In this document: piece after piece, positions 1,150 through 15,757 of the stretch
How positions within the stretch are numbered: the stretch's first letter is position 1
Layout: every line of letters begins with the position of its first letter
Assembly: GCF_001298675.1 (NCBI RefSeq)
Contig: NZ_CYIG01000007.1
Span: 62,001 to 126,000 of the forward strand
Direction: 5' to 3'
DNA length: 64,000 nt
DNA from: Paenacidovorax caeni
GTDB taxonomy: Bacteria > Pseudomonadota > Gammaproteobacteria > Burkholderiales > Burkholderiaceae_C
Notes under the pieces: generated by a model
The model's database searches: none
What the model was told of the DNA's origin: nothing
The model's input: only the letters and a program-made list of their open reading frames with translations
Position numbers and translations under genes: made by a program

Positions 1150-1641
1150 ATGCCCCACGTCATCGCCGTCTATCCAGGCACGTTCGACCCCATCACGCTG
1201 GGCCATGAAGACCTGGTGGCGCGTGCCGCCCAGTTGTTCGACGAGGTCATCGTTGCCGTGGCCGTGGGCCACCACAAGAAAACCCTGTTCAGTTTGGACG
1301 ACCGCATGGCGCTGGTGCGCGAGGTGGTTCGACCATTTCCACAGGTGCGCGTGGAGAGCTTCGACGGCCTGGTGCGCGACTTCGTGCGTGCCCACGGCGC
1401 CAAGGCCATGGTGCGCGGTGTACGCAGCGTCACCGACTTTGAATACGAGCGCCAACTGGCGGGCATGAACCGCCACCTGATGCCCGACGTGGAAACCGTT
1501 TTCCTCACGCCGAGCGACCGTTTTGCGCACCTCTCCAGCAGCTTCGTGCGCGAGATCCATACGCTGGGCGGCGACGTGCAGGCGTTGGTCTCTCCCGCCG
1601 TGCTGCAGCGGCTGCAGGCGCAGGTGCCCGTTCAGCGCTGA
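1150..1641 (+). CDS. coaD: phosphopantetheine adenylyltransferase CoaD
   Basis: 163 residues, the normal bacterial length. CoaD transfers AMP from ATP to 4'-phosphopantetheine to form dephospho-CoA, the penultimate step of coenzyme A synthesis. The nucleotidyltransferase motif GTFDPITLGHEDLVARA is at residues 10-26. RGVRSVTDFEYERQLAGMN (about residue 88 onwards) and the C-terminal SSSFVREI motif are also clear. The ATG follows the intergenic repeat by a few bases; upstream purines (AAAAGAATTC) give only a weak ribosome-binding site. Confidence 0.96.
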   Translation: MPHVIAVYPGTFDPITLGHEDLVARAAQLFDEVIVAVAVGHHKKTLFSLDDRMALVREVVRPFPQVRVESFDGLVRDFVRAHGAKAMVRGVRSVTDFEYERQLAGMNRHLMPDVETVFLTPSDRFAHLSSSFVREIHTLGGDVQALVSPAVLQRLQAQVPVQR

Positions 1642-1694
1642 ACTTGCCGGGGCGGCGCACGCTGCCGAGCGGGAGCGCCGTAAACAGTCTCCAA

Positions 1695-1722
1695 AAGCAA
1701 AAGCGCCCCCGAAGGGGCGCTT
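1695..1722 (-). terminator. rho-independent terminator of the BON-domain gene
   Basis: Perfect 9-bp stem AAGCGCCCC/GGGGCGCTT (1701-1709 with 1714-1722) and a 4-base loop. Read on the minus strand, the stem is followed by a T-rich stretch (TTTTGCTTTTGG), as expected after the BON gene ending at 1756. In the plus direction there is no good T run. Confidence 0.8.
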
Positions 1723-1755
1723 GCGTGTGGCTTGCCGCCCGGAGGGCGGGCCAGC

Positions 1756-2073
1756 TCAGGGGCGCACGACGATGCTGTTGCGCACTTCGCGCACGTGCTT
1801 GGTGTTGCGTGCGATGCTTTCGGCCTTGTTCTTCTCGGCCACGGTCTTGGCAAAGCCCGACAGTTGCACGGTGCCGTTCAGGGTCTCGACGCTGATCGCG
1901 CCGGCGGACACGGTCTTGTCTTCCACCAGCTTGGCCTTCACGGCCGTGGTGATGGCGGCGTCGTCCACGTAGGCGCCCACGGTTTGCTGGTCACGGGCCA
2001 CGGCGCAGCCGGTGGCGGTGACGATGGTGGTGCCGGCGAGGGCAGCGAAGGCGATGGCGCGAAGGTATTTCAT
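1756..2073 (-). CDS. BON-domain envelope (lipo)protein
   Basis: 105 residues. There is a Sec-type signal (MKYLRAIAFAALAGTTIVTA) with a Cys shortly after (ATGCAVARD), suggesting a lipoprotein, although the lipobox is imperfect. One BON domain follows (about residues 38-105: DDAAITTAVKAKLVED ... LNGTVQLSGFAKT ... VREVRNSIVVRP), the fold of OsmY-like periplasmic proteins linked to envelope or osmotic stress. The start is set by GAGGAGAAAACC directly before the ATG. Next in this direction across the prophage lie a DUF883-like gene and a DUF1328 gene, so the prophage appears to interrupt a stress-protein cluster. Confidence 0.85.
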   Translation of the reverse strand: MKYLRAIAFAALAGTTIVTATGCAVARDQQTVGAYVDDAAITTAVKAKLVEDKTVSAGAISVETLNGTVQLSGFAKTVAEKNKAESIARNTKHVREVRNSIVVRP

Positions 2074-2312
2074 GGTTTTCTCCTCGATGGGTTGGAAAGG
2101 CGAGTGCTGTGGTGCAGTGCCTGCCAGCCGGTTGCACTCCCCCGATCGGCAAGTATCCGCATCATGATGCCTGCGGTGCGCGGCACAGGCGGCGTGCATG
2201 GGCCGTGCGAACGCAAGCAATTGTCAATCAACTTCAGCGTTTGCGTGCGCGTGCCGCGTACCCCGCGGCCGTGGCCAGAGCGGCACCGGCCACGGCGAAT
2301 GGCGCGCCGCGC
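2074..2312. other. host flank: BON-gene promoter region and possible 3' remnant of a split gene
   Basis: No complete gene. On the minus strand a 25-codon open stretch (about 2237-2311, stop at 2234-2236) encodes APFAVAGAALATAAGYAARA and a basic RKR end, which looks like a membrane segment. Joined directly to the host sequence at the other prophage end it stays in frame with the DUF883-like gene at 41627-42016. It could therefore be that gene's displaced 3' end. This is an inference; a separate small gene remnant is also possible. Confidence 0.4.
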
Positions 2313-2377
2313 GCTTTGGCACTAAATAACGCTGCCTTTGGCACTTCTCAACGCTGGCTTTGGCGCACTTTTAAAGC
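2313..2377 (+). repeat. three 22-bp direct repeats at the left prophage end
   Basis: Units start at 2313, 2335 and 2357 with an exact 22-bp period: GCTTTGGCACT-AAAT-AACGCTG, CCTTTGGCACT-TCTC-AACGCTG, and a diverged third unit GCTTTGGCGCACTTTTAAAGC. MuA binds 22-bp sites repeated at the ends of Mu, so these are the likely transposase-binding sites of this element. The opposite end has an inverted copy of the first half-unit. Confidence 0.75.
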
Positions 2378-2389
2378 CTGCACCAGCGC

Positions 2390-2398
2390 TGTGGATAA
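2390..2398. promoter_or_regulatory. DnaA-box-like site at the left prophage end
   Basis: TGTGGATAA is the exact complement of the DnaA-box consensus TTATCCACA. It lies just inside the 22-bp repeats, and two more copies lie near the right end (41310-41318 and 41643-41651). Confidence 0.5.
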
Positions 2399-2420
2399 CT
2401 TTTGCCATGGCCCAGAGAGA

Positions 2421-2445
2421 TAAAAGGCCCGCATCGCGGGCCTTT
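2421..2445 (-). terminator. terminator at the end of the prophage late region
   Basis: Ten-bp perfect stem AAAGGCCCGC/GCGGGCCTTT with a 3-base loop (2423-2432 with 2436-2445). On the minus strand it is followed by TTTTATCTC. It lies downstream of the last late gene, close to the prophage end, and would stop late transcription before it enters the host. Confidence 0.85.
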
Positions 2446-2476
2446 GAAGTTGCAGGCGGCCTCGGCCGCCGCTGGT

Positions 2477-2701
2477 TTACGCCGTCACCGGCTTGCCGCC
2501 GAGCGCTTCGACTGCCTTGGAGAGCAGCTCTTCAACGCTTTCAAGATCCCCTGCATAGCCCCAGTGGCGTGGCTCCTTGGCCGCATCCCCTGCATGGGCG
2601 CGCTGCGCGTCGAGCAGCGCGGCGAGCTGGATGGTGATGTTGGCCTGGCGCATCTTGTAGGCTTCTGCGGCGCTGCGGGCTTGTTTTTTCACGTCGTACA
2701 T
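2477..2701 (-). CDS. small phage protein of unknown function
   Basis: 74 residues, largely helical and charged (KKQARSAAEAYKMRQANITI ... ESVEELLSKAVEALGG). It is the last gene of the late region. The ATG at 2701 has a GGAG about 10 bases upstream. A GTG at 2791 in the same frame overlaps the methyltransferase stop (TAGTG) and would add 30 residues by translational coupling; I prefer the ATG because of its ribosome-binding site. No family was recognised. Confidence 0.6.
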   Translation of the reverse strand: MYDVKKQARSAAEAYKMRQANITIQLAALLDAQRAHAGDAAKEPRHWGYAGDLESVEELLSKAVEALGGKPVTA

Positions 2702-2790
2702 GGCGGGAATCTCCGGTTGGTTTGCGATGCCACCAGTACCGCTCTGTCGCGCCGCGAAGCCAAGCGGTGCCAGACTACCGTTGTCTGCCA

Positions 2791-3576
2791 CTACGCCACC
2801 CGCTTGAAGTTGCTGATCAGCACCTCGGCCGCTTCCTGTTTCTTGGCCCCGCTAATGCTGTAGCGCGTCTTCACGGCCTCAATGTGGAAGTTGGCGAAGG
2901 TCTCACGCACGCCCGGCGTGTCGTTCAGGCTCAGGATGAAGCGTCCCTTGAGGCCGTCCAGCAGCCCCGCCAGGCGCCCAAAATCCTCCCGGCTGAACAA
3001 GCCCTCCCCGTAGTCGCCCTCGCAGTCCCAGTACGGCGGGTCCACGTAGAACAGGGTGCCGGGCTTGTCAAAGCGCTGGATGACCTGGTCGTAGGGCTTG
3101 TTCTCGATGAACACCCTGGCGAGCCGCAGATGGGCCTCGCTGAGATCTTCCTCGATCCGCAGCAGGTTGAGCCGAGGCGCGCCGGTGGCAGAGATCCCGT
3201 AGGTCGGGCGCACGATGCGCGCGCCGAAGCTGCTCTTGGCAAGGTAGAAGAACCTGGCCGCGCGCTGGATGTCTGTGAGGGTGTCGGCAGGGGTTTTGAG
3301 AAAGCGGTCGAACTCGTCACGCGACACCAGCATCCAGCGGAACTGCGCTACCAACTCACCCAGGTGGTACTTGACGCACCTGTACAGGTTGGTGAGTTCC
3401 GAGTTGATGTCGTTGATGATCTCGACTTTGCTTTCGGGCTTTTTAAAGAGCACCCAGGCCGCGCCCGCGAACACCTCGCAGTAGGTCTGGCGATCCGGCA
3501 TCCTCTCGATGATCCGGTCGGCCAGGCGGCTCTTGCCGCCCAGCCACGCCAATGGGCTTTTCAGTTGCGTCATCAT
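2791..3576 (-). CDS. DNA adenine-N6 methyltransferase (Dam/MT-A70 superfamily D12 class)
   Basis: 261 residues. The N-terminal SAM-binding motif PLAWLGGKSRLADRI and YCEVFAGAAWVLF, the catalytic DPPY motif in LFYVDPPYW (about residue 187 from this start) and a central target-recognition segment mark a D12-class adenine methylase. Its start lies inside the overlapping com gene, an arrangement like com-mom of phage Mu, where Com controls translation of the DNA modification gene. It probably modifies phage DNA to resist host restriction. AAGGAACC precedes two adjacent ATG codons (3576 and 3573); either may be used. Confidence 0.9.
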   Translation of the reverse strand: MMTQLKSPLAWLGGKSRLADRIIERMPDRQTYCEVFAGAAWVLFKKPESKVEIINDINSELTNLYRCVKYHLGELVAQFRWMLVSRDEFDRFLKTPADTLTDIQRAARFFYLAKSSFGARIVRPTYGISATGAPRLNLLRIEEDLSEAHLRLARVFIENKPYDQVIQRFDKPGTLFYVDPPYWDCEGDYGEGLFSREDFGRLAGLLDGLKGRFILSLNDTPGVRETFANFHIEAVKTRYSISGAKKQEAAEVLISNFKRVA

Positions 3577-3748
3577 GGTTCCTTGTTGAATGACGCTCAT
3601 GGCGTTCTGGCTTGGGGCTCGGGCCGCTGCGATCAGCGGTGCAGGCTCTCCAGTGGTTCAGGCACCCGCAGCGCGGGCACTTGATCTCTACGATTCCTTC
3701 GGCGCGGGCCAGCAGCTTGCTGCAGCGCCCGCATCTCACTTCTTTCAT
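3443..3748 (-). CDS. com: Com-like zinc-finger translational regulator
   Basis: 101 residues. The first 35 match the Mu Com pattern: MKEVRCGRCSKLLARA then IKCPRCGCLNHWRA, giving a four-Cys zinc site (CxxC ... CxxC). In Mu, Com binds mom mRNA and opens a hairpin so that mom can be translated. Here the last 134 bases of com overlap the start of the adenine methyltransferase in another frame, so the same control is likely. The C-terminal 60 residues (about 41 onward) are Arg/Pro/Gly-rich, partly a by-product of the overlap, and longer than in Mu Com (62 residues in total). Confidence 0.8.
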   Translation of the reverse strand: MKEVRCGRCSKLLARAEGIVEIKCPRCGCLNHWRACTADRSGPSPKPERHERHSTRNHDDATEKPIGVAGRQEPPGRPDHREDAGSPDLLRGVRGRGLGAL

Positions 3749-3875: not shown

Positions 3876-4097
3876 TTAAATCACATCGACATACACCGGC
3901 AGATCAGGCGCAGGCCCCTGAACCACCCCATCCTGGATAAACACCTTTGCGCCCACGGCAGCCTCGCCGCGCACACGCACCTGGCCCGCACCGGGCAGCT
4001 CCACGATGGTCGAGCCGTTGGCGCAATACACCACCGTGGCGATCTGCACCCGGCCAGGCGCCAGCAGCTCCTTGAGCTGCAAAAAAAGGTTAGGCAT
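3876..4097 (-). CDS. small phage protein, possible tail accessory
   Basis: 73 residues, predicted mostly beta: LLAPGRVQIATVVYCANGST, then IVELPGAGQVRVRG and VYVDVI. Its start overlaps the end of the 631-residue tail gene by 8 bases, so it is translated as part of the tail operon. A short OB- or SH3-like barrel is conceivable. No family recognised. Confidence 0.65.
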   Translation of the reverse strand: MPNLFLQLKELLAPGRVQIATVVYCANGSTIVELPGAGQVRVRGEAAVGAKVFIQDGVVQGPAPDLPVYVDVI

Positions 4098-5985
4098 GAC
4101 TGAGCACCTCCAGCGATTGCGTGAGCACCGGGAATGCATGGGTTATGTCCGTCGAATCCACAATGCCCAGGCGCTGCACCGAGACGTCATCCCAGTACCG
4201 CAGCACCGTGCCTGGCTTGATCACACCCGTGGCGGGCAGTACCGGCAGCGTCATCTTGTGGCGCAGCATCAGGCCGGACTCCGACAGCTCAGCGCGGGCG
4301 CGGGCCTTGGCCGCCTCAATGGTGGTAATCAAGGGATGCACCACCATGGGCTGCTTGAGCACGTCGCCCGCCGTGCCCGGCCGGGTCAGATCCGCGAACA
4401 CACCACCGGCCGCGCCGTGCACGAAGATGCGGTTGTATTCGGGTAAGTCGAGCACCTCGGTCTCATCGATCTCCGAGAACCCCTCAGGCAGCTCGATCTG
4501 CGGCACCAGCTCCTGCTGCCAGCGCCACCACTCCATGGGCCACAGGGGGAGCACGCGCATCACGCTGTCGGTGTCATGCGGCTGGAGGTAGCCGCCCACA
4601 CTGCCCGCGATGTCGGCCAGTGCGCTGACCATGGAGCCCTGATGCATCCAGACGCCCCCGGGCACAAGCCAGTCCTGCAGCCCAAAATCCACGCTCCAGC
4701 CGAAACCCACGCCGTTCACAGTGAGCACCTCGCTCATGAGCTGGTGTGCAGTGCGGTCCAGCGCCGAGCCGAAGTTCATAACCAAGCCGCGCTGTGGGTC
4801 GAGCACCGCCGCCTTACCCCGCCCCGATGTCGTGACGACGTGCTCCGGCAGGCGGCGGCTACGCGGCGCGCGCTCGATCTGCAGCCGAAACGGCTGGCCG
4901 TTGACCCGCACCTCGATCTCCACGGCCTGGCCCATGGGAGGAGTCACCGCATCGCGGGCCGAGGCATGGAACGTGGCGCTGAATGTCCACGTCCAGCTCT
5001 GCCGGTTGAGCTGCATGCTGAAGCTCTCACTGGGCAGCGGCGGCCCGCTCAGGTCGTCGGCACGGCGAATCTCGATACTGTTGATCACGACATAGCTCCT
5101 GCGCGCTGGCACGACGATGTCAGCTGGGTGCGGCGGCGGCCCAGCCCGCTCGCACACAAAGACCAGCCGCCCATCGCCCGTGGCCAGCTCATTGAAAACA
5201 AGGCGCCCCAGCGTTGCCGGGTCGTAGCACGGGGGGCGCTTGGGCGGCTGCGACGGCACGTACATGCCAGGCGGGGGCCGCATACCGTCCTGCCAGTGAC
5301 TGCGCAGGCCCAGGCTAAGCCTTTGCCCATCACGCCAGTGCTCGCCAACGGCGGCGCGCAGCGGCTGAGCCTCTTGCCAGTGTGTGAGCACAGCGGCACG
5401 CCGGGGCCGCATTTGCTGCCAGTGGGCGGCCACGGCCGCACGCAGGCCCTGCCCGTCTTGCCAGCGCACGGCCACGGCAGTGCACTGGTGCTGCGCCTCT
5501 TTCCAGGCCAGCACCACACCCCCGCCCAGCTGCTGCGCATCTTGCCAATGCACGGCCACGGCAGTGCGCTGGCGCTCGCCCTCTTGCCAGCGTGTAGCGG
5601 TGGCAGTGGCCAGGGGTGTAGCCTCTTGCCAGCGCGCCTGGGCTGCCACGCGCAGCGGTGCGGACTCCCGCCAAGGCAGCGAAGCACCAGCGGCCGCAGG
5701 CGCAGCCTCCTGCCAGACTGATTGCAGCTCGGCGCGCACACCGCCCCGGCTGACGTTGGCATCCCACTCCAGCACCACCGTGCCATCAAGGCCCGGTAGA
5801 TCGACATCCATTGACAGCCCCGTGCCAAAGCGCAGCACCAGCGGCCCGCCATAGTCCAGGCCGGGCAAGTCGGCATCGATGGCAAGCGGCGCATCAGGGA
5901 TGACCTCGCCACCCCCGGTGTCGCCAAAAACCAGTCGGCCAGTTCCGTCCTGCGGCGCGAAGAAGAGGAGTTTTGCGTCACCCAC
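4090..5985 (-). CDS. tail-tip/hub-like protein with ten 14-residue Trp repeats
   Basis: 631 residues. Residues 1-80 contain paired motifs (GRLVF at 17-21; DLPGLD at 39-44 and 62-67). Residues 91-230 are ten tandem 14-residue units, each starting with Trp (W91, 105, 119, 133, 147, 161, 175, 189, 203, 217, with W231 opening a partial unit), consensus WQ(E/D)(A/G)-x-x-L-R-(A/T)-AVA-x-H. A second GRLVF pair follows (about 260-276). The C-terminal half (about 290-631) looks like a tail hub: YVVINSIEIRR, a QSWTWTFSATF segment, EIEVRVNGQPFRLQIER, and a long alpha/beta remainder. It ends the run of large tail genes, so a receptor-contacting or baseplate-hub role is inferred. Confidence 0.7.
   Translation of the reverse strand: MGDAKLLFFAPQDGTGRLVFGDTGGGEVIPDAPLAIDADLPGLDYGGPLVLRFGTGLSMDVDLPGLDGTVVLEWDANVSRGGVRAELQSVWQEAAPAAAGASLPWRESAPLRVAAQARWQEATPLATATATRWQEGERQRTAVAVHWQDAQQLGGGVVLAWKEAQHQCTAVAVRWQDGQGLRAAVAAHWQQMRPRRAAVLTHWQEAQPLRAAVGEHWRDGQRLSLGLRSHWQDGMRPPPGMYVPSQPPKRPPCYDPATLGRLVFNELATGDGRLVFVCERAGPPPHPADIVVPARRSYVVINSIEIRRADDLSGPPLPSESFSMQLNRQSWTWTFSATFHASARDAVTPPMGQAVEIEVRVNGQPFRLQIERAPRSRRLPEHVVTTSGRGKAAVLDPQRGLVMNFGSALDRTAHQLMSEVLTVNGVGFGWSVDFGLQDWLVPGGVWMHQGSMVSALADIAGSVGGYLQPHDTDSVMRVLPLWPMEWWRWQQELVPQIELPEGFSEIDETEVLDLPEYNRIFVHGAAGGVFADLTRPGTAGDVLKQPMVVHPLITTIEAAKARARAELSESGLMLRHKMTLPVLPATGVIKPGTVLRYWDDVSVQRLGIVDSTDITHAFPVLTQSLEVLSHA
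5296..5715 (-). repeat. ten 42-bp tandem repeats inside a tail gene
   Basis: The 420 bases encode ten 14-residue units with exact spacing of the Trp codons and no insertions. The units differ in sequence but keep TGG-CAA/G-GA- openings, so the array is old or under selection for its period. Such arrays can change length by slippage or recombination. Confidence 0.85.
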
Positions 5986-5989
5986 ACGG

Positions 5990-6379
5990 CTACCCCAACA
6001 GCGCGGTATCGCTCAGCGGCACAACGCCGCCCGCGTAGATGACGAATGGGCCACCCTCGGGCGTGCCCTTGATTTGGAAAGGCCCAGGGCCCCAGGCATC
6101 GGTGACGGCCGCGCCAAAAATCGGCACGCCATTGCCGTCGCACCACTCACCCCACGATGGCGTGCCGGTGGCAAGCACCAGGTCTTGCTGCGCCGCTTGC
6201 TGCAGCGCGATGCGGCCCTGCGCATTGATCGTGCCGCACGGTTTGGCCAGGCGGCATACCGCCAGCAGCACCCCACCCTGCTCGGTGTAAATTTTGACGC
6301 TTGATGGGCCAGCGCCCGCATCAGCCATAGCGATGGATGCTGCATTGCGCGCGGCGCGGTGTGCGGTGCTGATGGTCAT
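5990..6379 (-). CDS. phage tail-region protein, unknown function
   Basis: 129 residues. N-terminal Ala-rich helix (AHRAARNAASIAMADAGAG) then beta-rich sequence (SVKIYTEQGGVLLAV, WGEWCDGNGVPIFG, GPFVIYAGGVVPL). The ATG overlaps the stop of the preceding gene (ATGA), so the two are coupled. No family recognised; position between two large tail-tip genes suggests a tip or chaperone role. Confidence 0.7.
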   Translation of the reverse strand: MTISTAHRAARNAASIAMADAGAGPSSVKIYTEQGGVLLAVCRLAKPCGTINAQGRIALQQAAQQDLVLATGTPSWGEWCDGNGVPIFGAAVTDAWGPGPFQIKGTPEGGPFVIYAGGVVPLSDTALLG

Positions 6380-6765
6380 GCATCCTCCCGCGCTACTACC
6401 GGGCCAGCGCCCACGGTCTTGTGGTTGCCCCAAGGGTCAATCGCCACAGCGATGTAGGAGACACCCAGCTCTAGGCCCTCGGCGCGGTAGTGGCCCTGAG
6501 CGTCGCTGTAGCCCTCCCAGGCTTTGAAGCCGTCCGCCGCGCGCAGCAGCCACACCCGGCCAGACACAAATGGCGCCTCAGGCGATACAGCCGAGGCGCG
6601 AAACATCACCCGGTCAGCAATCACGCCTAGCGTGGGATTGGTGTGCCGGTAGTCTTGGGGCAAGCGGCTGGGCCGGGGCAGTGGTAGCACGCCGCTGAAC
6701 TGCGCACCAGGCGCACACTGCAGCAGGCCGTGGCGCGCTAGCGGTAGGAGGATGGGACTGCTCAT
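6376..6765 (-). CDS. tail-region protein with transthyretin-like (carboxypeptidase-regulatory) fold
   Basis: 129 residues. The C-terminal 65 residues (SGRVWLLRAADGFKAWEGYS ... GHYRAEGLELGVSYIAVAID) have the strand pattern of a CarboxypepD-regulatory or transthyretin-like beta sandwich: G-x-V-x-L, a G-x-Y turn, then a Y-x-V-A strand. Such domains decorate phage tails and bind surfaces. The domain call is from pattern only. Confidence 0.65.
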   Translation of the reverse strand: MSSPILLPLARHGLLQCAPGAQFSGVLPLPRPSRLPQDYRHTNPTLGVIADRVMFRASAVSPEAPFVSGRVWLLRAADGFKAWEGYSDAQGHYRAEGLELGVSYIAVAIDPWGNHKTVGAGPVVAREDA

Positions 6766-6774
6766 GCGCCCGCC

Positions 6775-7959
6775 TTAGCGCCAGGGGCCGGTGACATCGA
6801 CAAATGCGGTGCCGGAGCGGCTGCCCGAAGATTGCCCGACAGGCACAGCCGCAAGCTTGCGCCCGGCCAGCGCCCCAGCGCCGTCATTCAAAGCAAAGGG
6901 CGTGGGGAAAGGTGTGTTGTCAAGCACCTGCGGCACAAAGTGGCAGCCAGGCACTACGGCGCGCAAGTCGTTCGTCGCCTGGTCTTTGAGCATCATGCGC
7001 GCCATGCGGATTGCGCCATCTACACGCCCGGGGGCTATGCCTAGCGTGCCATCGCTGCCGGATAGCATGGTGACGTTCCCGCCCTCTGGCACAGGGCGCG
7101 CATATACCGCACTACCCAGCCCTTGCCAGCCGCGTGCGAAGGTAGCTGCGCCGGAGGTGGCGCTGTCGGTGGAGGCACCAGACAGGCCGCCATACTGGAG
7201 GCCGCTGCCGATGCTGCCCGTCGCAGACAACACAGTAGCAAAGGCATCACCCGCAGGATTGAGTGCCACACCTTCGCCAAAGCCGAAAACGGCTGTTGTG
7301 GTGTTGTTTGCGCTGTTCGCAACGCCAAAACACACAGCCTGCAGCAGCAGCTTTGCATCTGCAGCCAGCAGGTACGGGATTGCTGTCGTATTGCTTGCTG
7401 TGGACTTGTGCCAGTAGCCGCCACCCGTGGCGATTTGCGCATCGAGTGGAAAAAGCCCGGTGCCAGTGTCAATGTCGCTCATGGTCTCGTAGCCGCGCAC
7501 TCTGGCGAAAAGGCCATTGCTGTCATCGACACGCAGGTAAAAGCGTGCGCCAGTCACATCCGTGCTGCGGTACACGGCCTTGTTGGTTCTGGTGTCAACC
7601 TTTTCCCAGCCTGCAGGGGCATATTTGAGCGTGATCGCGCCCGTGGCCACGCCGTCTGGGGCTGTTGTTGCGAACGTGATCTGCGTGTTGCTCGCTGTCA
7701 GCACGCGCGCCTCGCCATTGAGCGCGGAAGGCGTCGCACCATCGACCCACACCACAGCATGCTCTGCGAAGCTGCTGCCCGCATTGACCGTGGCCGTAGC
7801 GATACCGCCTGAGACCGAGACGCTGAGCGCCGTGGTTGTGCCCCAGCCGGTGACCAGCAACGCATCGAGCGCCGCGATCAGGCACCCAGGCGTGTTGCCG
7901 TTGATGACGGGCGCTCCGCGCATGTCGTTGCGGATCCATTTGACCGATGTAGATAGCAT
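6775..7959 (-). CDS. tail-tip or fibre-like protein
   Basis: 394 residues, Gly/Ala/Thr/Ser-rich and beta-like throughout (TTALSVSVSGGIATATVNAG, ATGAITLKYAPAGWEKVD). The sequence resembles a surface or tail-tip subunit: the N-terminal MLSTSVKWIRNDMRGAPVING may be the attachment part and the C-terminus ends in AFVDVTGPWR. The ATG at 7959 follows GGGAGAAGAA; a GTG four codons upstream would place the start too close to that site. No family recognised. Confidence 0.7.
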   Translation of the reverse strand: MLSTSVKWIRNDMRGAPVINGNTPGCLIAALDALLVTGWGTTTALSVSVSGGIATATVNAGSSFAEHAVVWVDGATPSALNGEARVLTASNTQITFATTAPDGVATGAITLKYAPAGWEKVDTRTNKAVYRSTDVTGARFYLRVDDSNGLFARVRGYETMSDIDTGTGLFPLDAQIATGGGYWHKSTASNTTAIPYLLAADAKLLLQAVCFGVANSANNTTTAVFGFGEGVALNPAGDAFATVLSATGSIGSGLQYGGLSGASTDSATSGAATFARGWQGLGSAVYARPVPEGGNVTMLSGSDGTLGIAPGRVDGAIRMARMMLKDQATNDLRAVVPGCHFVPQVLDNTPFPTPFALNDGAGALAGRKLAAVPVGQSSGSRSGTAFVDVTGPWR

Positions 7960-7973
7960 TTCTTCTCCCACGC

Positions 7974-9896
7974 TTACTCGTTACCCGGAAGCCGCGCCAC
8001 GCTGCCGCGCTGCACAAGCCAGAAACTGTCATCCGCCACAGCGGGGCTGCTGGGCTGGGTGCAGCGCACCACGGCGATCTGGCCTTCGGCACCCACGGTG
8101 TCCACAAACAGCACGTTGCCTTGCACCCAGCCGGTGTTCCATCCGGCTGCGCGCACCGTCAAATAAGGCGCTCCCGCCGCCACGTTGATGGGCGCGAAAT
8201 CCGCATTGATCGTGCCGCTGGCGATCTGGCCCAGGTGCTGGCCGATCAGGTCGAAGGTCACGCCGTCCGAGCGCATGCGCAGCGCCCAGCGCTCGGTGAT
8301 GGCGCCACGGTTGGTGACTTCGATGGGTACGCCCGCGTGGTTGTATTTGGCGGCTGCCTCACCCTTGGCGGGGTCTACCCCGTCGTACCAGGTGGTGCCG
8401 CTCCAGCTCGCCTGGCTATACACCCGTGAGACGCGTGCGAAGCGGTCGTTCTGGCGCAGCGCCGTCGAGAACACGGCCCCAGCCGGGAAGGCGTAGCCCA
8501 CGGGCTCGGTCAGGCGCACCTTGCCGTCGATGCGCACCTCGGCGATCTGGCGGTACACCTCGGTACGGCCAACCACCCGTATCTGGGCCGGGTAGCCCGT
8601 CAAGTCTGTGAAGGTGAGCGTGCCCGCGTCCAGATCGTGCGTGTAGCCCGTGCGGATTTCGGCGCCAGTGACGTCATCGAGCACCTGCACGAACGACAGG
8701 CGCTCATGGCCGACGCTGTAGGTCTCACCCACGAACGGCACAAACGCAGGCCCGCTGTGTGTGACGCCGACCACGCAGGTGTCACCCGGGCGCGCGAAGG
8801 GCACGCGGCCATCGGGCGGCAGCGCGGCGGGGTCCAAGCCCATGAGGCTGGCATCCACCGGAAGATAGACGTAGCTGACGCACGAGTAGCGCAGCGTGGT
8901 CGGATCGACCGGCCACGGCCGCCAGATCTTGCCCGCCTGCACCGCGCCCACATCGGCCGCGCTGTACCACCACTCGGCCTTCTCAGCAGCAGTCAAACTG
9001 GAGTCCAGCACGAAATCGCCGAACTGGAGCTGCACGCCGCCCCGGGCGAAGTCCACCGCACCCCACATGTGCAGACCGCTGACCACCCCCTGGCCGTTGA
9101 CGTTGGCCGTCAGCGTGGCGCCATGCGTATCGACCACCGAGAGCACCAAGCCACCGGCGCCTGCACGCAGCGGCGCCACCTCGGTGTTGAAGAACACGCT
9201 GGACGTGTGCCATTGACCGGCAACCGTCCACAGGCTCAGCAGCGTGAAGTCCTGCGGGCCCATGCCGCCCACCACGTAGTCGTACATGAAGGCGCAGCCG
9301 GTCTCGTAGTCCATGCGGCCCGATGCGATGCCGGGGTCGGACGCGGTGCGCCCCCGGTAAATGACGCCCTCAAAGTCCTCATAGACCTGGCCCATCCAGC
9401 GGAACTGCACGCTGCCTGCCACGACCCGGTGGGAGGTGTAGGGGCACAGCTGCAGCATGACCTCGCCGGGCTCAAACTGCTCGGTGTGCGTACGCGGCAC
9501 ACTGGAACCCACCCGATAGCGCGCAACCAGGCTGGAGCCCGAGAACAGCTCTTCGCCCACGCTGGCCGTGCCGTACTCGCCACCCTTTTTGCCGTCGTCT
9601 TTCCAGTCGCCCTCGCCATCGGTCACGGCGCGCGCGAAATTCGTGGCGTTTTCGTAGTCGCTCTTGTACGCCTCGGTCTGCTTGTCAAAGTTCACGACCT
9701 TGAGCGAGACCGCCTTGCCCACGTAGTCCACCGTGCCACGCCCGAAGCCAAGCTGCCCGGCGCCGTCGTCAGTGACGGTCTTCACGGTGACGATGCGGTT
9801 ATCCGACGTCTTGCCGGTTTCCTCGGTCATCGTGGCCTTGCTGGAGCTGCTGGTGACCATAGCCATCGGCGTACTGATAAGAGTCCATCTGCCCAT
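7974..9896 (-). CDS. large tail protein
   Basis: 640 residues, beta-rich. Near the N-terminus it carries one copy of a module also found twice in the next gene upstream (DDGAGQLGFGRGTVDY). The middle has VRYRVGSSVPRT-like strands and the PLRAGAGGLVLSVVDTHGAT segment. No signal or membrane segments. GGAG lies 8 bases before the ATG, which favours 9896 over an upstream in-frame start. It probably belongs to the tail tip or distal tail of a siphovirus-like particle. Confidence 0.72.
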   Translation of the reverse strand: MGRWTLISTPMAMVTSSSSKATMTEETGKTSDNRIVTVKTVTDDGAGQLGFGRGTVDYVGKAVSLKVVNFDKQTEAYKSDYENATNFARAVTDGEGDWKDDGKKGGEYGTASVGEELFSGSSLVARYRVGSSVPRTHTEQFEPGEVMLQLCPYTSHRVVAGSVQFRWMGQVYEDFEGVIYRGRTASDPGIASGRMDYETGCAFMYDYVVGGMGPQDFTLLSLWTVAGQWHTSSVFFNTEVAPLRAGAGGLVLSVVDTHGATLTANVNGQGVVSGLHMWGAVDFARGGVQLQFGDFVLDSSLTAAEKAEWWYSAADVGAVQAGKIWRPWPVDPTTLRYSCVSYVYLPVDASLMGLDPAALPPDGRVPFARPGDTCVVGVTHSGPAFVPFVGETYSVGHERLSFVQVLDDVTGAEIRTGYTHDLDAGTLTFTDLTGYPAQIRVVGRTEVYRQIAEVRIDGKVRLTEPVGYAFPAGAVFSTALRQNDRFARVSRVYSQASWSGTTWYDGVDPAKGEAAAKYNHAGVPIEVTNRGAITERWALRMRSDGVTFDLIGQHLGQIASGTINADFAPINVAAGAPYLTVRAAGWNTGWVQGNVLFVDTVGAEGQIAVVRCTQPSSPAVADDSFWLVQRGSVARLPGNE

Positions 9897-9906
9897 TTCG
9901 TACTCC

Positions 9907-11610
9907 TCAGGCGCTGCGCGGCCAGTTGACGCCACTGCCGCTGGTGGCTACTGGCTCCACCCACTGCGGGGCGGATTTCCAGATATAGGTTGCGTCCGCC
10001 GATTTCGTGGCGGTGGTGGTGGTGAGGTTGCCGCCGCTACTGGCGCTGACCTGGCGGCCCACAGCCCACTGCAGCTGCAGCGTGCCCGCGGCGGGCTGTT
10101 GCGCGAGCCCGAAGTTGATGTAGCCACCGGCATCCGGCACGAGCGCACCGCCGACAATCTCGGTCACCAGCGTCTCAAACTGGCAGGAGATCTGAAAAAC
10201 GGCGCCCGGATCGGGCATGTGCGTGGGGCGCAGCAGCAGCGTGCGGCTGGGATAGTCCAGCACGCCCGTGGCAGCGCCCGTGAGCTTGCCCGTGCCATCG
10301 TCAGACACGGTGCGCACGACACCGGCACTGGGGTATTCAATCGAAAAGCTGCCGGGCACGACGCGGTCAGAGGCGGTGGCCTCGTCATCGCCGCCGAGCA
10401 CAAAGCAGTACTCGGGCCGGGGCACCACGGCACCCTGGCCCGCGCGGCTGGTGTACGCCGTGCGCGTGCCATGGCTCATGCAGATCAGGGAGCCGATGTC
10501 GGGCAGCGCCTTGAGCGTCACGATCACCGTGCCCGTGAGGTACGACACCGACCCGCCACCCCAGCCCGTGAGCTTGCCAGCGCCATCGTCGGCAATCGTG
10601 TAGCGCTGGCCCTGCGCCCAGTAGTCGATAAGCAGCGTGCCAGGCTCCGGCAGCGGAGAGCACTGGATTACGTAGTTCAGGCCGAGGTTTTCCTCTTGCA
10701 CTTTGATGCGCTGGGTGTGCGGCGTGATGCCCACCTCGACGCGGCGCGGCGCCTCGGCCAGCACGATGGTGCGCCGTGCCGTGGGCCGCTGGTCTACGCT
10801 GACGGCCTCGGTACGGTTGTTGGGCACGATCTGCGTGTAGATGCTCTCGGCCTGAATCCAGGTGTCGGTGATCTGCGTTGCAGCCGTCAGGCGGCTTGCG
10901 CCGTAGAACAGGCCGCCGTCGTAATAGACCGTCTCGCGCACCATCGTTTTTTGCGCATTGCGTGCAAAGAACCGGGTCGGAGGCGATCCAGGAAAGTCGT
11001 AAAGCAGTGCATCAAACAACTCGCATGTCGAAACCTGCGCCTGGAAATCAACCAATGTGCCGTTGATGACCTCCGTGAAGGTGCGCGTCTGCGTGTCCAC
11101 GCTCTTGATGCGCACGCGCTGGTAGCGCTCACCCGCCTGGCCTTCCATGTACACCAGCACATAGGTCTTACCAACAGCGGGTGGCGGCATGCCGGGCCGC
11201 TGCAGGAGCTGGCATGCCTTCATGGTCTCGTAGTGGTTCTCCAGCAGGTAGCCATTCCACTCGCTGCCCGCCGTCATGCCGCTTTCGATACGCTGCGCGA
11301 TCTGCTTGCGTGTGGCGAAGGGGTCTTTGAGCGTGAGCATGGTGACGCTCACGCGCGGGTCAGCGGGCGGCTGCGCGATGATCACGTTGGCGCCATACAG
11401 CGGCGCCTGGTCGGCATTGCGCAGCACACCGAAGATCGAATAGATCTCCACGCGCCCCACGGTGCGCGTCTCCTCGGAAATGTCCGGGAAGATTTCGTTG
11501 CTGCGCCCGCTGGTCAGCAACTGCGCGGACGGAGGGCCGCCGCCCTCGGGCACGTCGGCCATGTTGGCCGAGCGCGCAAAACGGATGTCGCCTGCAAGCA
11601 GTGGCATCAC
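9907..11610 (-). CDS. large tail protein with internal duplicated domain
   Basis: 567 residues. Two copies of a roughly 55-residue beta module lie at about 321-375 and 418-472; each opens with PxPG or VPG, contains DDG(A/T)GKLTG followed by a G-x-x-x-Y turn, and closes with a LP(D)PG-type loop. The N-terminal part begins LLAGDIRFARSANMADVPEG and includes the VYMEGQAGERYQRVRIKSVD strand pair. Its start overlaps the preceding stop. A structural role in the tail tip is likely; no family name is claimed. Confidence 0.72.
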   Translation of the reverse strand: MMPLLAGDIRFARSANMADVPEGGGPPSAQLLTSGRSNEIFPDISEETRTVGRVEIYSIFGVLRNADQAPLYGANVIIAQPPADPRVSVTMLTLKDPFATRKQIAQRIESGMTAGSEWNGYLLENHYETMKACQLLQRPGMPPPAVGKTYVLVYMEGQAGERYQRVRIKSVDTQTRTFTEVINGTLVDFQAQVSTCELFDALLYDFPGSPPTRFFARNAQKTMVRETVYYDGGLFYGASRLTAATQITDTWIQAESIYTQIVPNNRTEAVSVDQRPTARRTIVLAEAPRRVEVGITPHTQRIKVQEENLGLNYVIQCSPLPEPGTLLIDYWAQGQRYTIADDGAGKLTGWGGGSVSYLTGTVIVTLKALPDIGSLICMSHGTRTAYTSRAGQGAVVPRPEYCFVLGGDDEATASDRVVPGSFSIEYPSAGVVRTVSDDGTGKLTGAATGVLDYPSRTLLLRPTHMPDPGAVFQISCQFETLVTEIVGGALVPDAGGYINFGLAQQPAAGTLQLQWAVGRQVSASSGGNLTTTTATKSADATYIWKSAPQWVEPVATSGSGVNWPRSA

Positions 11611-11990
11611 ACCTCCAGAAATTTAAACAAGGGGACGTAGACGGTCTGGCCGTTGATCTCGCTGTCTTCCAGGCGCCAGATCGGGTCGGCAGTGAATTCG
11701 AGGAACAGCACCGTGCGCGCCTGGCCGCGCACTACCAAGCTGAACTCGGCACCCGGCAACGCGGCCCACGCATTGAGCTGGTCGCACTGCGCGCGCTCGA
11801 TCCAGGCGCGGCTGTCGCGCCCGTCGAGCGTGATGGGGCGCCCCGCCTTGCGCTTGCCGACGTGCACGATGAGTGCGCCGTGCGTCCCCCACTTCTGCGC
11901 TGTCACAACGGGCGTCCAGGCGTATTCGTCCGTCCACAGCAGACGGTCGGACAGGGTGAGCACCTCACCAGCGCGGGCAAGCGTGATCAT
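11607..11990 (-). CDS. minor tail protein downstream of the tape measure
   Basis: 127 residues, mixed beta/alpha (ALIVHVGKRKAGRPITLDGR, then FSLVVRGQARTVLFLEFTAD, then a C-terminal VYVPLFKFLEV). It overlaps both neighbours by 4 bases. Its place directly after the tape measure corresponds to minor tail or distal-tail proteins of siphoviruses. Confidence 0.75.
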   Translation of the reverse strand: MITLARAGEVLTLSDRLLWTDEYAWTPVVTAQKWGTHGALIVHVGKRKAGRPITLDGRDSRAWIERAQCDQLNAWAALPGAEFSLVVRGQARTVLFLEFTADPIWRLEDSEINGQTVYVPLFKFLEV

Positions 11991-14900
11991 TGGGCAACCC
12001 TCTTGGCTTCAGCCAGCGAGCGGATGAGCGCATCGCCGTTGAGCTGACTCTGCCGGTCGGCGTAGCCCACCGACTGGCGGCGGCCGTCGATGGTGATGTT
12101 CGAGACGTAGACCGTGCTGCCAGCGCCTGGCTTCACGCCAGGGCTGCTGTCCGGACTGGCGCCGGGCGCAGAAGATGGGGGCGCAGTGCTGGGGCCCGCA
12201 CCAGGCGGCGTTGCACCGGGGCCTGCACTGGAGCTGGTGCTGCTCTTGGTGCGCTCTTTCTCTTGCGCCTGCTGCTTGTCGGATTCCCGCTTGCGCTGTG
12301 CGCGCTCTTTCTCCTCAATCTGACCGAGCAACGCCAGCATTTCCTTCTGCTTGGCGATTTCCTTGTCCAGCTCGGCCAGCTTGGCGTTGTCTTTCCAGAC
12401 GCGCGCGCGCTCCATTTCGAGCTGCAGGCGCTGCAGCTCCAGCGTGATCTGGTTGCGCTCGCGCTCGGCCTTGGCGGCAGCGATCTCCTCCTCGGTGCCG
12501 TCGATCTCCAGCAGGCGCATGCGCATATCAGCCAGCGCCGCATCGCTGCCCTGGGCAGACTGCTGCAGCTTTTGCTGAGCAGCATCGATCCCCTCCAGGG
12601 TCTCGATCATCTTGTTGGCCTGGGCGCTCATGGCCGCGAAGCCCGCCTCGGTTTGCGGGTGGAAGCGCACGGTCTCCCACATGGCCTTGTTCACCGCCTG
12701 CGCGTACTTGCTGGCGCCGTTTTCTCCGCGCCACCACATGCTGACCAGGCTGTCGGCGGACTGGGAGGCCTCCTTGGCGGCGCCGGCAGTTTGCTTGCCC
12801 GCTTTTTCCGCCTTGTCGCCCATGCCCTTGAGGCTGTCGCCCGCCTTGTCGGCGCTGTCGCCCACGTTTTGCAGGGTCTCGCCCGCGCCGCCGCCGCCAC
12901 CACCACCACCGCCACGCAGACCCGCAAGCCGCTCCAGCTTCTTGGCAAGCTCCTCCGCTGCCTTGGCCTGGTTGAGCATCGCCGTGGCCGAGTTGATGGA
13001 TGCGTCGATCTCTGCCTGCGCCGCCTCCGTCAGCAGCCCCCTGAGCTCCAAGTCCTTACGCTTTGCCTCGGCTGCAGCCAACACACCCTCGGCCTCGACG
13101 CGCTTGGCCTGAGCCGACAGCAGCGCCTGCTTGGCCTCCAGGCGCTTGATTTCCAGCAGCGCCTGGGCCGCACCGGCTTCATCGCCCTGCGCCTGGGCCA
13201 GCTCGTAGGCGGTTTGCTTTTCGGCGATGGCCAGCTGCAGCGCGGACTGGCGCACGCCGATGGCGCTGCGCTTGAGGGCGATGTCCGCCCGCGTGGCCTG
13301 GGCCGAGTCCTTGAGCGCATCACGGTACAGCACCAGCGCCGCCCCGGCGTCGCGCTCGGCCTGGGCCACCTGCTGCGCCGTGGCGCGCCCTTGCTCCTGC
13401 GCGGCGCGCAGCTCCAGCACCTTGACCTCGGCATGCGCGTAAGCGTCACCCAGCTCGCGCACGCGGCCGCCGTTGTCTTTGTGGGCCTGGGCCTCGGCCG
13501 TGGCTTTGGCAGCCACCACGGAAGAGGCATCGGCCTGGGCGCGGGCCTTGCGCGTTTCCTCGGTGCGCTCGGCGATCAGTGTGCGCAGATCCTCCAGCTG
13601 CTTCCTGCGCGCATCGTCCACCTTCAGTTCGGCCGCCACCTCGAATTCCATCGACTGCAGCTTGGCCTTGAGCGTGTCCAGCTCGGTTTGGCGGGCCTGC
13701 GCCAGTTGTTCCAGCGCCTGTGCGCTGGCCTGGGCCGCGCTGGCAGCGGCTGCGCGCTGCTGCCCCTCGGTGCCAAAGGCGGTGGCAAGATCCATGGCCG
13801 CCTTGCCCTCGGCCTCGCGCGCGGCAACGCTCTTTTGCGCCAGGGAAATGCTCTCCTGCACGCTGGCCAGCACATTGCCATAGCCCACCTGCAGGCGCGT
13901 CCAGTCGCCAGCGCTCGCCGCCGCCTGCGCACCCGCAGCCTGTGCTGCACCACCAGCTTGCGCCAGCCCTGCGGCTGCTGCCGCTGCCGCGCCATTGGTT
14001 TTGCCCAGTTCGGGGTTCACCAGCTCCAGCGATGCGCGCAGCGTGTCGTTGTGCTGCGCCGCCTTGAGGATGCTGGTTTGCGAGGCTTTTTCAATGGCGG
14101 CAAATTCTTCGCGCACACGCGAAAAATCCAGCGTCATGATGGCCCCCATCAGCACGCCGATTTTTTGCCCAGCGGACACCAAGCCTTCACCAAACAGCAG
14201 TATCGCCATTTGTGCCAGCTCGGCCGCCACCTTGAATGCGTTGAGCCCGCCACTCTCGCCCAGGCGCGCGCTCATGTCGGTGAAGGCATTCTTGATATTG
14301 ATGAATTCCTGCGAAAGCGTCTGTGCACCGCCGGCTTGGCCGTAGAGCTCGTTCAGCCCCTTTGTCAGCGCCGGGAAGATGTCGTTGGCTGTGATGCTCC
14401 CGGCTTCCACCAGCTCGTTCAGCTTTTCCACTGTGATGCCCATGCCCGCCGCAGCAGCCTGCAGCGCGCCGGGCAGCGCTTCGCCCAACTGGCCCTTCAG
14501 TTCCTCGGCCTGCACGGTGCCCTTGCTGGCCATTTGGCCCAGCGCCACCAAGGCGTTGCTGGTCTCGGCGCTGCTTTTGCCCGCCTTGCCCATGGCGGTA
14601 GCCACCGCTTCGAACACGTCGCGCGTGGCCTTGCCTTCTACGGCAGTCCCCTTGGTGCTGGCGGCCAGGCCCAGGAAGGCGCGGCCAGCCTCCACCGTGT
14701 CCACGCCGACCTTGCTGGCTACTGCACGCACGAATTCCAGTTCTTGCGCGGCCTTCGCGGAATCCCCGGTGACGGCCTTGAGGCCCGCTTGTAACGTTTC
14801 CATGCTGGCGGCGGCGGCCACCGCCTCACGTGCGGTAAATGCTGCTGCCATTGCCGTGCCCGCAGCCTTGGCGGCTTGGCCCAACACGCCCACTCCCTGA

Positions 14901-15496
14901 GCAGCCTCCTGTGACTGAGCACCCGCCTGACGCACGGCTGCGCCCATGTCGCGTGCACTTTTTTCTACGGCGCCAGCGCCAGCGGCGGCAGCACGATAGC
15001 CGGGAACCAACTCCTGAACAGATTCACGCACAGAGCCCATTTGGGCGCGCAGCCGCTGCTGGGCCGCACCTACATCCTTGGCGCTGATACCGTAGCGTGT
15101 CAGCTCGGCCTGGGCCGTCTTGAGGGCCGTGCTGCTCTGATCATAGGCATCCTTGGTGGCCTTGACCTGGGCCTGTAGACGCACCATGCCATCGGCCTCT
15201 TCCTTGGTCATCAGGGCACCACGGCCCACCTGGGCGGCATAGTTCGCCGCCTCGGTTTGCGCAGCCTTCAACGCCTTCGCTGCGGCCCGTGCCTCCGAAT
15301 CCAGGGTGTTGAATGCATTGATGGCGGCATCCTGCTGCGCCAGCCCGCGCAACTGCGCAGCCGCCGCCTGGGCGGCGGTCTTCATGTCGCCATCGAGCAC
15401 CTTGGCGACGTTGTCCAGGTCATCGGCCAGGCCGGTGATTGACTCCCGGCCCTTCACGCCAATGCTCAACTCGGTGCTGATTTGCTTGTCCGCCAC
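11987..15496 (-). CDS. tail tape measure protein
   Basis: 1169 residues, the longest gene of the prophage. It has long Ala/Gln/Glu/Lys-rich coiled-coil stretches and a typical tape-measure N-terminal core (AGRAFLGLAASTKGTAVEGK, SNALVALGQMASKGTVQAEE, LKGQLGEALPGALQAAAAGM). A short hydrophobic patch (LAQMAILLFGEGLVSAGQ) follows at about 430, then a nine-Gly hinge near 865 and a Ser/Pro/Gly-rich region before the C-terminus. Tape measures fix tail length and help DNA entry. By the usual scale of about 0.15 nm per residue the tail would be near 170 nm, which is an estimate only. Confidence 0.92.
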   Translation of the reverse strand: MADKQISTELSIGVKGRESITGLADDLDNVAKVLDGDMKTAAQAAAAQLRGLAQQDAAINAFNTLDSEARAAAKALKAAQTEAANYAAQVGRGALMTKEEADGMVRLQAQVKATKDAYDQSSTALKTAQAELTRYGISAKDVGAAQQRLRAQMGSVRESVQELVPGYRAAAAGAGAVEKSARDMGAAVRQAGAQSQEAAQGVGVLGQAAKAAGTAMAAAFTAREAVAAAASMETLQAGLKAVTGDSAKAAQELEFVRAVASKVGVDTVEAGRAFLGLAASTKGTAVEGKATRDVFEAVATAMGKAGKSSAETSNALVALGQMASKGTVQAEELKGQLGEALPGALQAAAAGMGITVEKLNELVEAGSITANDIFPALTKGLNELYGQAGGAQTLSQEFINIKNAFTDMSARLGESGGLNAFKVAAELAQMAILLFGEGLVSAGQKIGVLMGAIMTLDFSRVREEFAAIEKASQTSILKAAQHNDTLRASLELVNPELGKTNGAAAAAAAGLAQAGGAAQAAGAQAAASAGDWTRLQVGYGNVLASVQESISLAQKSVAAREAEGKAAMDLATAFGTEGQQRAAAASAAQASAQALEQLAQARQTELDTLKAKLQSMEFEVAAELKVDDARRKQLEDLRTLIAERTEETRKARAQADASSVVAAKATAEAQAHKDNGGRVRELGDAYAHAEVKVLELRAAQEQGRATAQQVAQAERDAGAALVLYRDALKDSAQATRADIALKRSAIGVRQSALQLAIAEKQTAYELAQAQGDEAGAAQALLEIKRLEAKQALLSAQAKRVEAEGVLAAAEAKRKDLELRGLLTEAAQAEIDASINSATAMLNQAKAAEELAKKLERLAGLRGGGGGGGGGAGETLQNVGDSADKAGDSLKGMGDKAEKAGKQTAGAAKEASQSADSLVSMWWRGENGASKYAQAVNKAMWETVRFHPQTEAGFAAMSAQANKMIETLEGIDAAQQKLQQSAQGSDAALADMRMRLLEIDGTEEEIAAAKAERERNQITLELQRLQLEMERARVWKDNAKLAELDKEIAKQKEMLALLGQIEEKERAQRKRESDKQQAQEKERTKSSTSSSAGPGATPPGAGPSTAPPSSAPGASPDSSPGVKPGAGSTVYVSNITIDGRRQSVGYADRQSQLNGDALIRSLAEAKRVAQ

Positions 15497-15714: not shown

Positions 15715-15757
15715 AAGGCCGACATCTGTCGGCCTTTGTATTGGTGGAAGTAGCTTT
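15715..15757. promoter_or_regulatory. late-operon junction module, copy 3 (dyad plus T-rich tract)
   Basis: Ten-bp arms AAGGCCGACA/TGTCGGCCTT with a 2-base spacer (15715-15724, 15727-15736). Read on the minus strand it continues TTATTTATTTGTGC. Nearly the same module lies at 21257-21276 and 28317-28336. It can be a terminator for the tail-tube transcript, an activator-binding dyad for the tape-measure operon, or both. Confidence 0.7.

Follow-up and report, generated by a model that had tools for sequence, protein, structure and literature searches.

A tryptophan array of 14-residue period ahead of a predicted gp27-type baseplate hub in a Paenacidovorax caeni prophage

We analysed a stretch of 64,000 nucleotides (nt) from Paenacidovorax caeni (assembly GCF_001298675.1, contig NZ_CYIG01000007.1, forward-strand positions 62,001 to 126,000), hereafter the window, which contains the tail module of a prophage. 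The subject of this report is a gene of that module whose product carries a strictly periodic array of tryptophans ahead of a predicted baseplate hub domain. The gene starts with GTG and contains an open reading frame (ORF) of 631 amino acids (aa). The array was delimited by Trp spacing and autocorrelation and the hub domain by predicted structure and fold matches, giving the following features:

4090-5985, minus strand: whole gene, predicted baseplate hub protein with an N-terminal repeat arm (PHROG 6079)
5806-5985, minus strand: N-terminal cap segment, residues 1-60 (LLFF..GRLVFGD, DLPGL), with an RLVF-type motif
5716-5805, minus strand: entry segment, residues 61-90, in which W74 sits 17 residues ahead of W91
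5296-5715, minus strand: ten complete 14-residue Trp units, residues 91-230
5266-5295, minus strand: eleventh anchor W231 and proline-rich exit (WQDGMRPPPG), residues 231-240
5089-5265, minus strand: linker and second cap (LGRLVFNELATGDGRLVFVCE), residues 241-299
4093-5088, minus strand: predicted gp27/Mu gp44/VgrG-type baseplate hub domain, residues 300-631

An earlier note on this DNA, made from the letters alone, had counted eleven Trp exactly 14 residues apart, bounding ten gapless units at nt 5296-5715, and a recount of the ORF translation agreed. The array tryptophans lie at residues 91, 105, 119, 133, 147, 161, 175, 189, 203, 217 and 231, with a spacing of 14 and no insertion, and the units between them vary in protein sequence yet hold the period, as had also been claimed. 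Ten Trp-Trp pairs at lag 14 were present; 20,000 shuffles of the region gave at most five. An RLVF-type motif flanks the array on both sides; similar paired cap motifs were seen by eye in relatives, and a Pro-Gly array end like that of the window protein was present in most aligned homologue arrays. At the profile level, the protein matched the PHROG 6079 "tail protein" entry over residues 8-630 (E 1.9e-130) and PHROG 1887 over residues 191-614 (E 2.4e-10). The statement that no named phage domain with such a period was known gained support from profile searches of the whole protein, residues 91-231 included, which returned 0 families from Pfam-A (E up to 1) and 0 from NCBIfam (E up to 0.1), although short degenerate repeats can escape both.

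An antisense open frame of 381 aa (4576-5721, plus strand) spans the array and is probably a composition effect. Its length across the array is what could be said for regarding the period itself as a product of chance or composition in a GC-rich, Ala/Arg-rich frame. We give that explanation next to no probability, given the shuffle controls, the same period in homologues from many genomes and viral contigs, and the detection of a homologue in virions (PMC8541194).

The protein was modelled as a single chain with AlphaFold2 from an alignment of 89 sequences. Residues from about 290 to 631 were predicted confidently and the rest with low confidence: in the predicted local distance difference test (pLDDT), ten-residue block means were 77-98 over residues 301-631, and values were below 50 for residues 1-60. 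Foldseek matched the hub part to hubs of the gp27/Mu gp44/VgrG type with E down to 1.1e-16. Comparison of the hub by VIA gave phage Milano 8fqc_C1 (Z 22.1, root-mean-square deviation (rmsd) 3.4, 297 residues aligned), Mu 9ki1_G (Z 21.0, rmsd 3.5, 299 aligned), Mu gp44 1wru (Z 19.5, rmsd 4.2, 292 aligned), VgrG1 4mtk_A (Z 18.0, rmsd 3.9, 294 aligned), T4 gp27 1k28_D (Z 17.3, rmsd 4.0, 299 aligned) and T5 pb3 7zqp_b (Z 12.1, rmsd 4.8, 312 aligned, the match covering chain residues 13-712). A hub fold was also found by structure prediction and fold search in a relative, L219 (homologous loci are given by L numbers). Residues 300-631 are thus confidently predicted to form a gp27/Mu gp44/VgrG-type baseplate hub, and the earlier assignment to the tail tip gains support from this fold.

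In the alignments, model residues 302-630 corresponded to residues 3-336 of Mu 9ki1_G, and model residue ~300 aligned with residue 1-8 in most of the 50 hub chains listed, the later-starting chains among them being 9mlp_A (from 97) and 6u9e/f/g (from 173). Because position ~300 coincides with the start of most listed hub chains, the array belongs to an N-terminal extension of about 300 residues. A hub that begins at residue ~300 instead of near the chain N-terminus is, on the predicted structure, a variant architecture with the hub fold retained. None of the fold matches listed covered the array, so these searches were uninformative on its fold. Sequence profiles run against the sequences of solved structures gave two whole-protein matches (E 0.42 and 0.43) that we attribute to chance; for the array region they gave three amylases (E 0.0038-0.17), which covered stretches of 29-41 residues and were set aside.

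We then surveyed homologues. Of 300 genomes of the order, 10 contained PHROG 6079, among them the genome of the window itself, whereas 14 control genomes had no detection. One of the ten detections (G002/L011) was a protein with HTHV/HEQQA-type repeats and a chance 14-residue period, and is not a relative. Two homologue collections were limited to the best 80 of 91 and the best 80 of 245 confirmed loci and may therefore lack rarer forms. A homologous frame was recovered in 172 of 175 loci; those missed were L011 and also L013 and L014, two distant hubs whose 14-residue units are anchored by Tyr. Five relatives tested also matched PHROG 6079. In two records the frame itself was altered, the hub gene being split over two frames in L116 and shortened in L286.

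Loss of the spacing in homologues, which the earlier note had named as grounds for abandoning its claim, was not what we observed. The best identity lag was 14, 15, 28 or 29 in 96 of 101 family members (mean over 20 shuffles, 14.6) and in 29 of 38 members of other subfamilies (5.0), and the best aromatic lag took one of these values in 86 of 101 (shuffles, 14.2) and 32 of 38 (6.0), respectively; L065, L063 and L010 of the main family and L286 of the others were left out of these counts. Distant phage proteins showed the same tendency, with a top identity or aromatic lag of 14, 15 or 28 in six of eight, from phages of Psychrobacter, Pseudoalteromonas, Shewanella, Vibrio, Curvibacter and P. aeruginosa; the top lag was none of these in the remaining two, Marinobacter phage AS1 (L181) and an uncultured phage (L184). 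Where distant relatives have the 14- and 28-residue periods, the anchors are other ones, and single 15-residue units are present in some homologues. One locus that aligns badly (L059:3230-5047, plus strand; APWG-type) has RAPWG-like anchors and units alternating between 14 and 15 residues, with a double unit of about 29.

When the relations between units were examined, autocorrelation covered 102 of 104 arrays, position and Fourier profiles the 28 gapless arrays and third-codon comparisons 29 gapless arrays; lags 14 and 28 were compared in both the 28 and the 102. Mean identity over the 102 arrays peaked at lags 14 (0.190), 28 (0.224) and 42 (0.155) against a background near 0.08. Identity at lag 28 exceeded that at lag 14 in 27 of the 28 gapless arrays (0.348 vs 0.252), and the two-unit lag beat the one-unit lag in 69 of 102 arrays when lags 15 and 29 were also allowed. 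Because identity at lag 28 is the higher, a feature that the earlier note had not listed, the structural period may be two units. The anchor residue was less strictly kept than its spacing: 78% of 308 anchors in the gapless arrays were W, F or Y (192 W), with H, V, A, M, L and others making up the remainder. The conserved feature is therefore the spacing, not Trp itself.

Similarity between units extended to the DNA. Third-codon agreement in the window array was 0.51-0.58 at lags of 42, 84 and 126 nt vs 0.15-0.22 at 21, 63 and 105 nt, and the array holds an 18-bp exact DNA repeat at lag 84; these two observations make duplication or exchange between units likely. Over the 29 gapless arrays the third-codon contrast was weaker (0.41-0.44 vs 0.30-0.32). 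Exact DNA repeats at the two-unit lag of 84 nt were also found inside the arrays of L109, L017 and L053 (34, 23 and 21 bp), hinting at exchange in two-unit steps. Moreover, units within one protein were about as alike (0.274) as same-numbered units across proteins (0.248; 374 pairs), which suggests exchange among units at constant unit number.

The length of the array region was nearly uniform. It was 154-162 aa in 102 of 104 representatives and 154-161 aa in 158 of 161 full-length frames of the window's subfamily, the exceptions being 93 (L059), 148 and 164 aa. These 161 frames were not dereplicated (the window's own gene recurs) and can include frames with no clear array, such as L065, and length was counted from one alignment column to another. 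The HS6-type group, named after a Pseudoalteromonas phage, comprised 21 frames, of which 18 were measured, with motifs that differed slightly between frames; the array was 128-130 aa long in 15 of these 18 and 125, 115 and 99 aa in the others. The array of L199 (115 aa) is shorter than that of its group by exactly 14 residues, one unit, and that of L217 (99 aa) by about 30.

The earlier note had suggested that the array is a beta-solenoid or beta-hairpin rod, perhaps reaching a receptor, with a length that gain or loss of units could change. Its periodicity, the alternation of residues described below, the DNA-level identity between units and the two shortened arrays of L199 and L217 are in keeping with such a rod. 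As a general rule, however, length change did not hold up: 158 of 161 subfamily frames fall into a single length class, and divergence hits the letters of the units, not their number. We therefore consider a length-tuned rod quite improbable.

The fold of the unit was approached through the distribution of hydrophobic residues, proline and glycine. In the gapless arrays, the Fourier amplitude of VILMFWY was 2.16 at period 2 vs 1.20 at period 3.5, and 1.50 vs 0.75 without the anchor. Pro and Gly occurred 4.7 and 7.8 times per 112 residues over 102 arrays, and 27% of units had Pro at position 6 while 21% had Gly at position 4; only 3 of 102 arrays had no Pro. Because of this hydrophobic alternation and the Pro/Gly content, beta strand-turn units are probably the better description of the array, as far as sequence patterns can tell. 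A membrane-barrel reading was dropped on inspection of the alignment, in which several homologues have polar residues on the supposed outer face.

Several results, however, weigh against beta units. When Ala was counted as hydrophobic, periods 2.0 and 3.5 nearly tied (1.59 vs 1.38, or 1.11 vs 1.06 with the anchor omitted), and in a P. aeruginosa-like group of 25 units period 3.5 exceeded period 2 once the anchor was omitted (0.63 vs 0.38). Pro and Gly together were less frequent in the array (11%) than in the hub used as a control (15%). AlphaFold drew the window array as a lone helix of 125 residues (90-214, pLDDT ~70), and its model of L219 (26 sequences), with the array mostly coil, few short strands and no helix, had a confidence too low (pLDDT ~25) to prove beta.

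These points bear on another explanation, a long alpha-helix forming a coiled coil in which each 14-residue unit would span two heptads. The AlphaFold helix, hydrophobic positions 1, 4, 7 and 11 when Ala is counted, and a composition rich in Ala, Gln and Arg would suit it. The heptad periodicity expected of a coiled coil was absent, since identity over 102 arrays did not peak at lag 7, 21 or 35; period 2 dominates without Ala, the Pro+Gly content of about 11% and the scarcity of Pro-free arrays are awkward for a helix, and the L219 array model, at its low confidence, contains none. A helical array thus seems improbable to us. The beta hairpin or solenoid suggested earlier was favoured by the alternation and the Pro/Gly pattern, but not by the predicted models (helix in the window array, mostly coil in L219).

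The surroundings of the gene match a tail module. Genes for a terminase, portal and head protease lie upstream on the same strand as the hub gene, which follows the tape measure gene, the expected position of a gp27-type hub. The neighbouring features are:

15757-16761, minus strand: major tail protein, upstream of the hub gene
11987-15496, minus strand: tape measure ORF, upstream of the hub gene
5990-7971, minus strand: tail-tip genes upstream of the hub gene (147, 129 and 398 aa), corresponding by position to the genes that change along with the arm in MuM16-1/HS6-type relatives
3876-4139, minus strand: 87-aa protein directly downstream of the hub gene (phrog_5076, E 4.5e-20), OB-like by eye

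A gene of 70-77 aa directly follows the hub homologue in seven of nine phage records, the exceptions being Presto and LR797314. The 87-aa protein is a possible partner of the hub; a sequence search of solved structures found no relative of it. Between the tail-tip genes and the tape measure ORF, two overlapping ORFs of 653 and 567 aa (7974-11610, minus strand) match the last and first parts of phrog_6128 (1200 positions), as though one protein of that family had been divided in two in this prophage. At the prophage end, a DNA methyltransferase (phrog_56) adjoins a Com-like translational regulator (phrog_6417) at 2791-3748 (minus strand), an arrangement that recalls com-mom of Mu. In MuM16-1, the hub and its small partner are followed closely by an adenine methyltransferase and a C4-type Zn-ribbon protein.

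We next compared divergence along the protein in the window's subfamily, leaving out L065, L063, L010, L070, L091, L094 and L092. Among 292 pairs with a hub identity of 75-85%, the array averaged 38% identity, compared with 43% for residues 1-60 and 50% for the linker. No other segment of the protein diverges as fast as the array in this subfamily.

In the MuM16-1/HS6-type relatives, whole blocks differed. L212 and L213, both of the HS6-type group, share 99% identity in the hub and 44% in the extension, and at the DNA level 97% identity on both sides of an unalignable block of ~1.7 kb (about 1264 to 3001). This block contains a gene of ~320 aa, a gene of 116/217 aa and the N-terminal arm of the hub protein, and ends at about residue 170 of that protein, just past the array. 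Blocks with nearly the same borders were found in L204/L211 (flanks 85/96% identical) and L185/L193 (flanks 76/94% identical); L204/L211 and L212/L213 involve the same two arm types and are hence not independent. In some of these relatives the arm and the upstream tail-tip genes have together been replaced or have diverged too far for DNA alignment. Alignability was then assessed in all 68 pairs of 25 MuM16-1/HS6-type loci and in a random 80 of 452 main-family pairs. The hub interior was alignable at 100% of positions in the 68 pairs, and the arm co-varied with its upstream neighbours in a good part of them, the neighbours varying more. In the window's subfamily the variable block sits upstream of the array; between the window and L016, for example, the unalignable stretch (about 6627-7467) lies inside the upstream genes and outside the array.

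Taken together, the hub position, the fast divergence and the partial co-variation with neighbouring tail-tip genes lead us to favour, at close to even chances, a reading in which the array is the body of a host-facing N-terminal arm on a siphophage gp27-type hub, serving as an adhesin or as a holder of the upstream proteins. Each unit would form a beta-strand (about positions 7-14 and 1-2) with side chains alternating in and out and ending at the aromatic anchor, followed by a short turn at positions 3-6 with Gly at 4 and Pro at 6, and two units would make one hairpin or coil. If the hub is a trimer, as its family suggests, three such arms could build a host-facing structure at the tail tip, which would either bind the host surface itself or hold the variable proteins encoded just upstream, and host contact might then be relayed to the hub to open the tail. 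Receptor contact by the array would fit its divergence.

The homologue p48 of Shewanella phage MuM16-1 is reported as a virion protein identified by mass spectrometry, and the authors hypothesise that the conserved genes p45-p49 act in receptor recognition (PMC8541194). Here p48 corresponds to L180, whose 98% identical copy L185 matches PHROG 6079 with E 1e-132.

Other observations count against the host-facing arm. In 268 pairs with a hub identity of 95-100%, the extension still averaged 80% (median 85, minimum 41). In the 68 MuM16-1/HS6-type pairs, the upstream genes (-1800 to -800 from the hub domain) were only 12-17% alignable while the array stretch (-600 to -200) remained 57-63% alignable, and in the 80 pairs sampled from the window's subfamily 97% of the array DNA was alignable, with no block swap of the array. 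Fast divergence can equally reflect relaxed constraint, and a constant length is unlike what would be expected of a tunable adhesin.

As the poorest alignment is found in the upstream genes rather than in the array, we shifted some weight from the host-facing arm toward a trimeric beta-spike or prism, N-terminal to the hub, that would serve membrane puncture or tip closure and leave specificity to the upstream genes alone. The near-constant array length, the 28-residue period, the hub context, the lack of any domain C-terminal to the hub in the window protein, and upstream genes that vary more than the array in relatives and form the sole variable block in the window's subfamily would all accord with a spike. 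So would the low single-chain model confidence, which is common for interwoven trimers. On the other hand, conservation within the protein is lowest in the array, which goes with the upstream block in some relatives, and the arrays have no identity peak at lag 8, unlike the T4 gp5 needle with its octapeptide repeat. We regard a spike as unlikely on balance, but as the main rival of the host-facing arm, ahead of the coiled coil.

A more specific version of the host-facing arm is that the array represents a new trimeric beta-repeat fold in which every 14 residues contribute one aromatic-anchored strand and every 28 residues two, presenting a recognition surface of fixed length and variable letters. 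Exposed positions would be rewritten, and the arm sometimes replaced along with its partners, with no change in the hub, the spacing or the number of units. We hold this to be rather doubtful; if true, it would be a repeat-protein solution to host recognition at the N-terminus of a hub, a component that closes the tail and opens it on host contact. The fixed-period arm, the most variable part of the protein, marks a likely host-facing site in many uncharacterised beta- and gamma-proteobacterial phages, and is a clear target for trimer prediction and cryo-electron microscopy.

Among known systems, the gp27-type hubs (Mu gp44 1wru/9ki1, T4 gp27 1k28, VgrG and T5 pb3) share the fold predicted for residues 300-631. 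The window protein differs from them in that the hub occupies the C-terminal half up to the end of the chain, with about 300 residues, including the Trp array, ahead of it. The additions known on solved hubs mostly follow or interrupt the hub, as do the extra domains of VgrG and T5 pb3. PHROG 6079, matched over nearly the whole length, and PHROG 1887 read just "tail protein" and carry no hub or repeat annotation. In its proposed strand-turn units the array also resembles the triple beta-spiral of fibre shafts such as those of adenovirus, where short repeats of strand and turn have a Gly or Pro at the turn. The triple beta-spiral repeat has 15 residues, whereas the window array, known here by sequence alone, has 14, together with a 28-residue super-period and an aromatic anchor.

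Closer in context is the trimeric hub gp53 of JBD30, a siphophage of a Gram-negative host, which offers attachment sites for fibres and receptor-binding proteins, the adhesins being gp47, gp48 and gp54 (PMC11445458). Its extra domains V-VII come after the hub core, and the accessible text mentions no 14-residue array (PMC11445458). Salmonella phage Jersey gp32 is alike in carrying an N-terminal addition on a siphovirus hub, one for which no DALI matches were reported; a periodic repeat is not mentioned in the accessible text (PMC13243795). No description of an N-terminal 14-residue array was found in the accessible portions of the open-access literature searched. The hub itself is of a known type.
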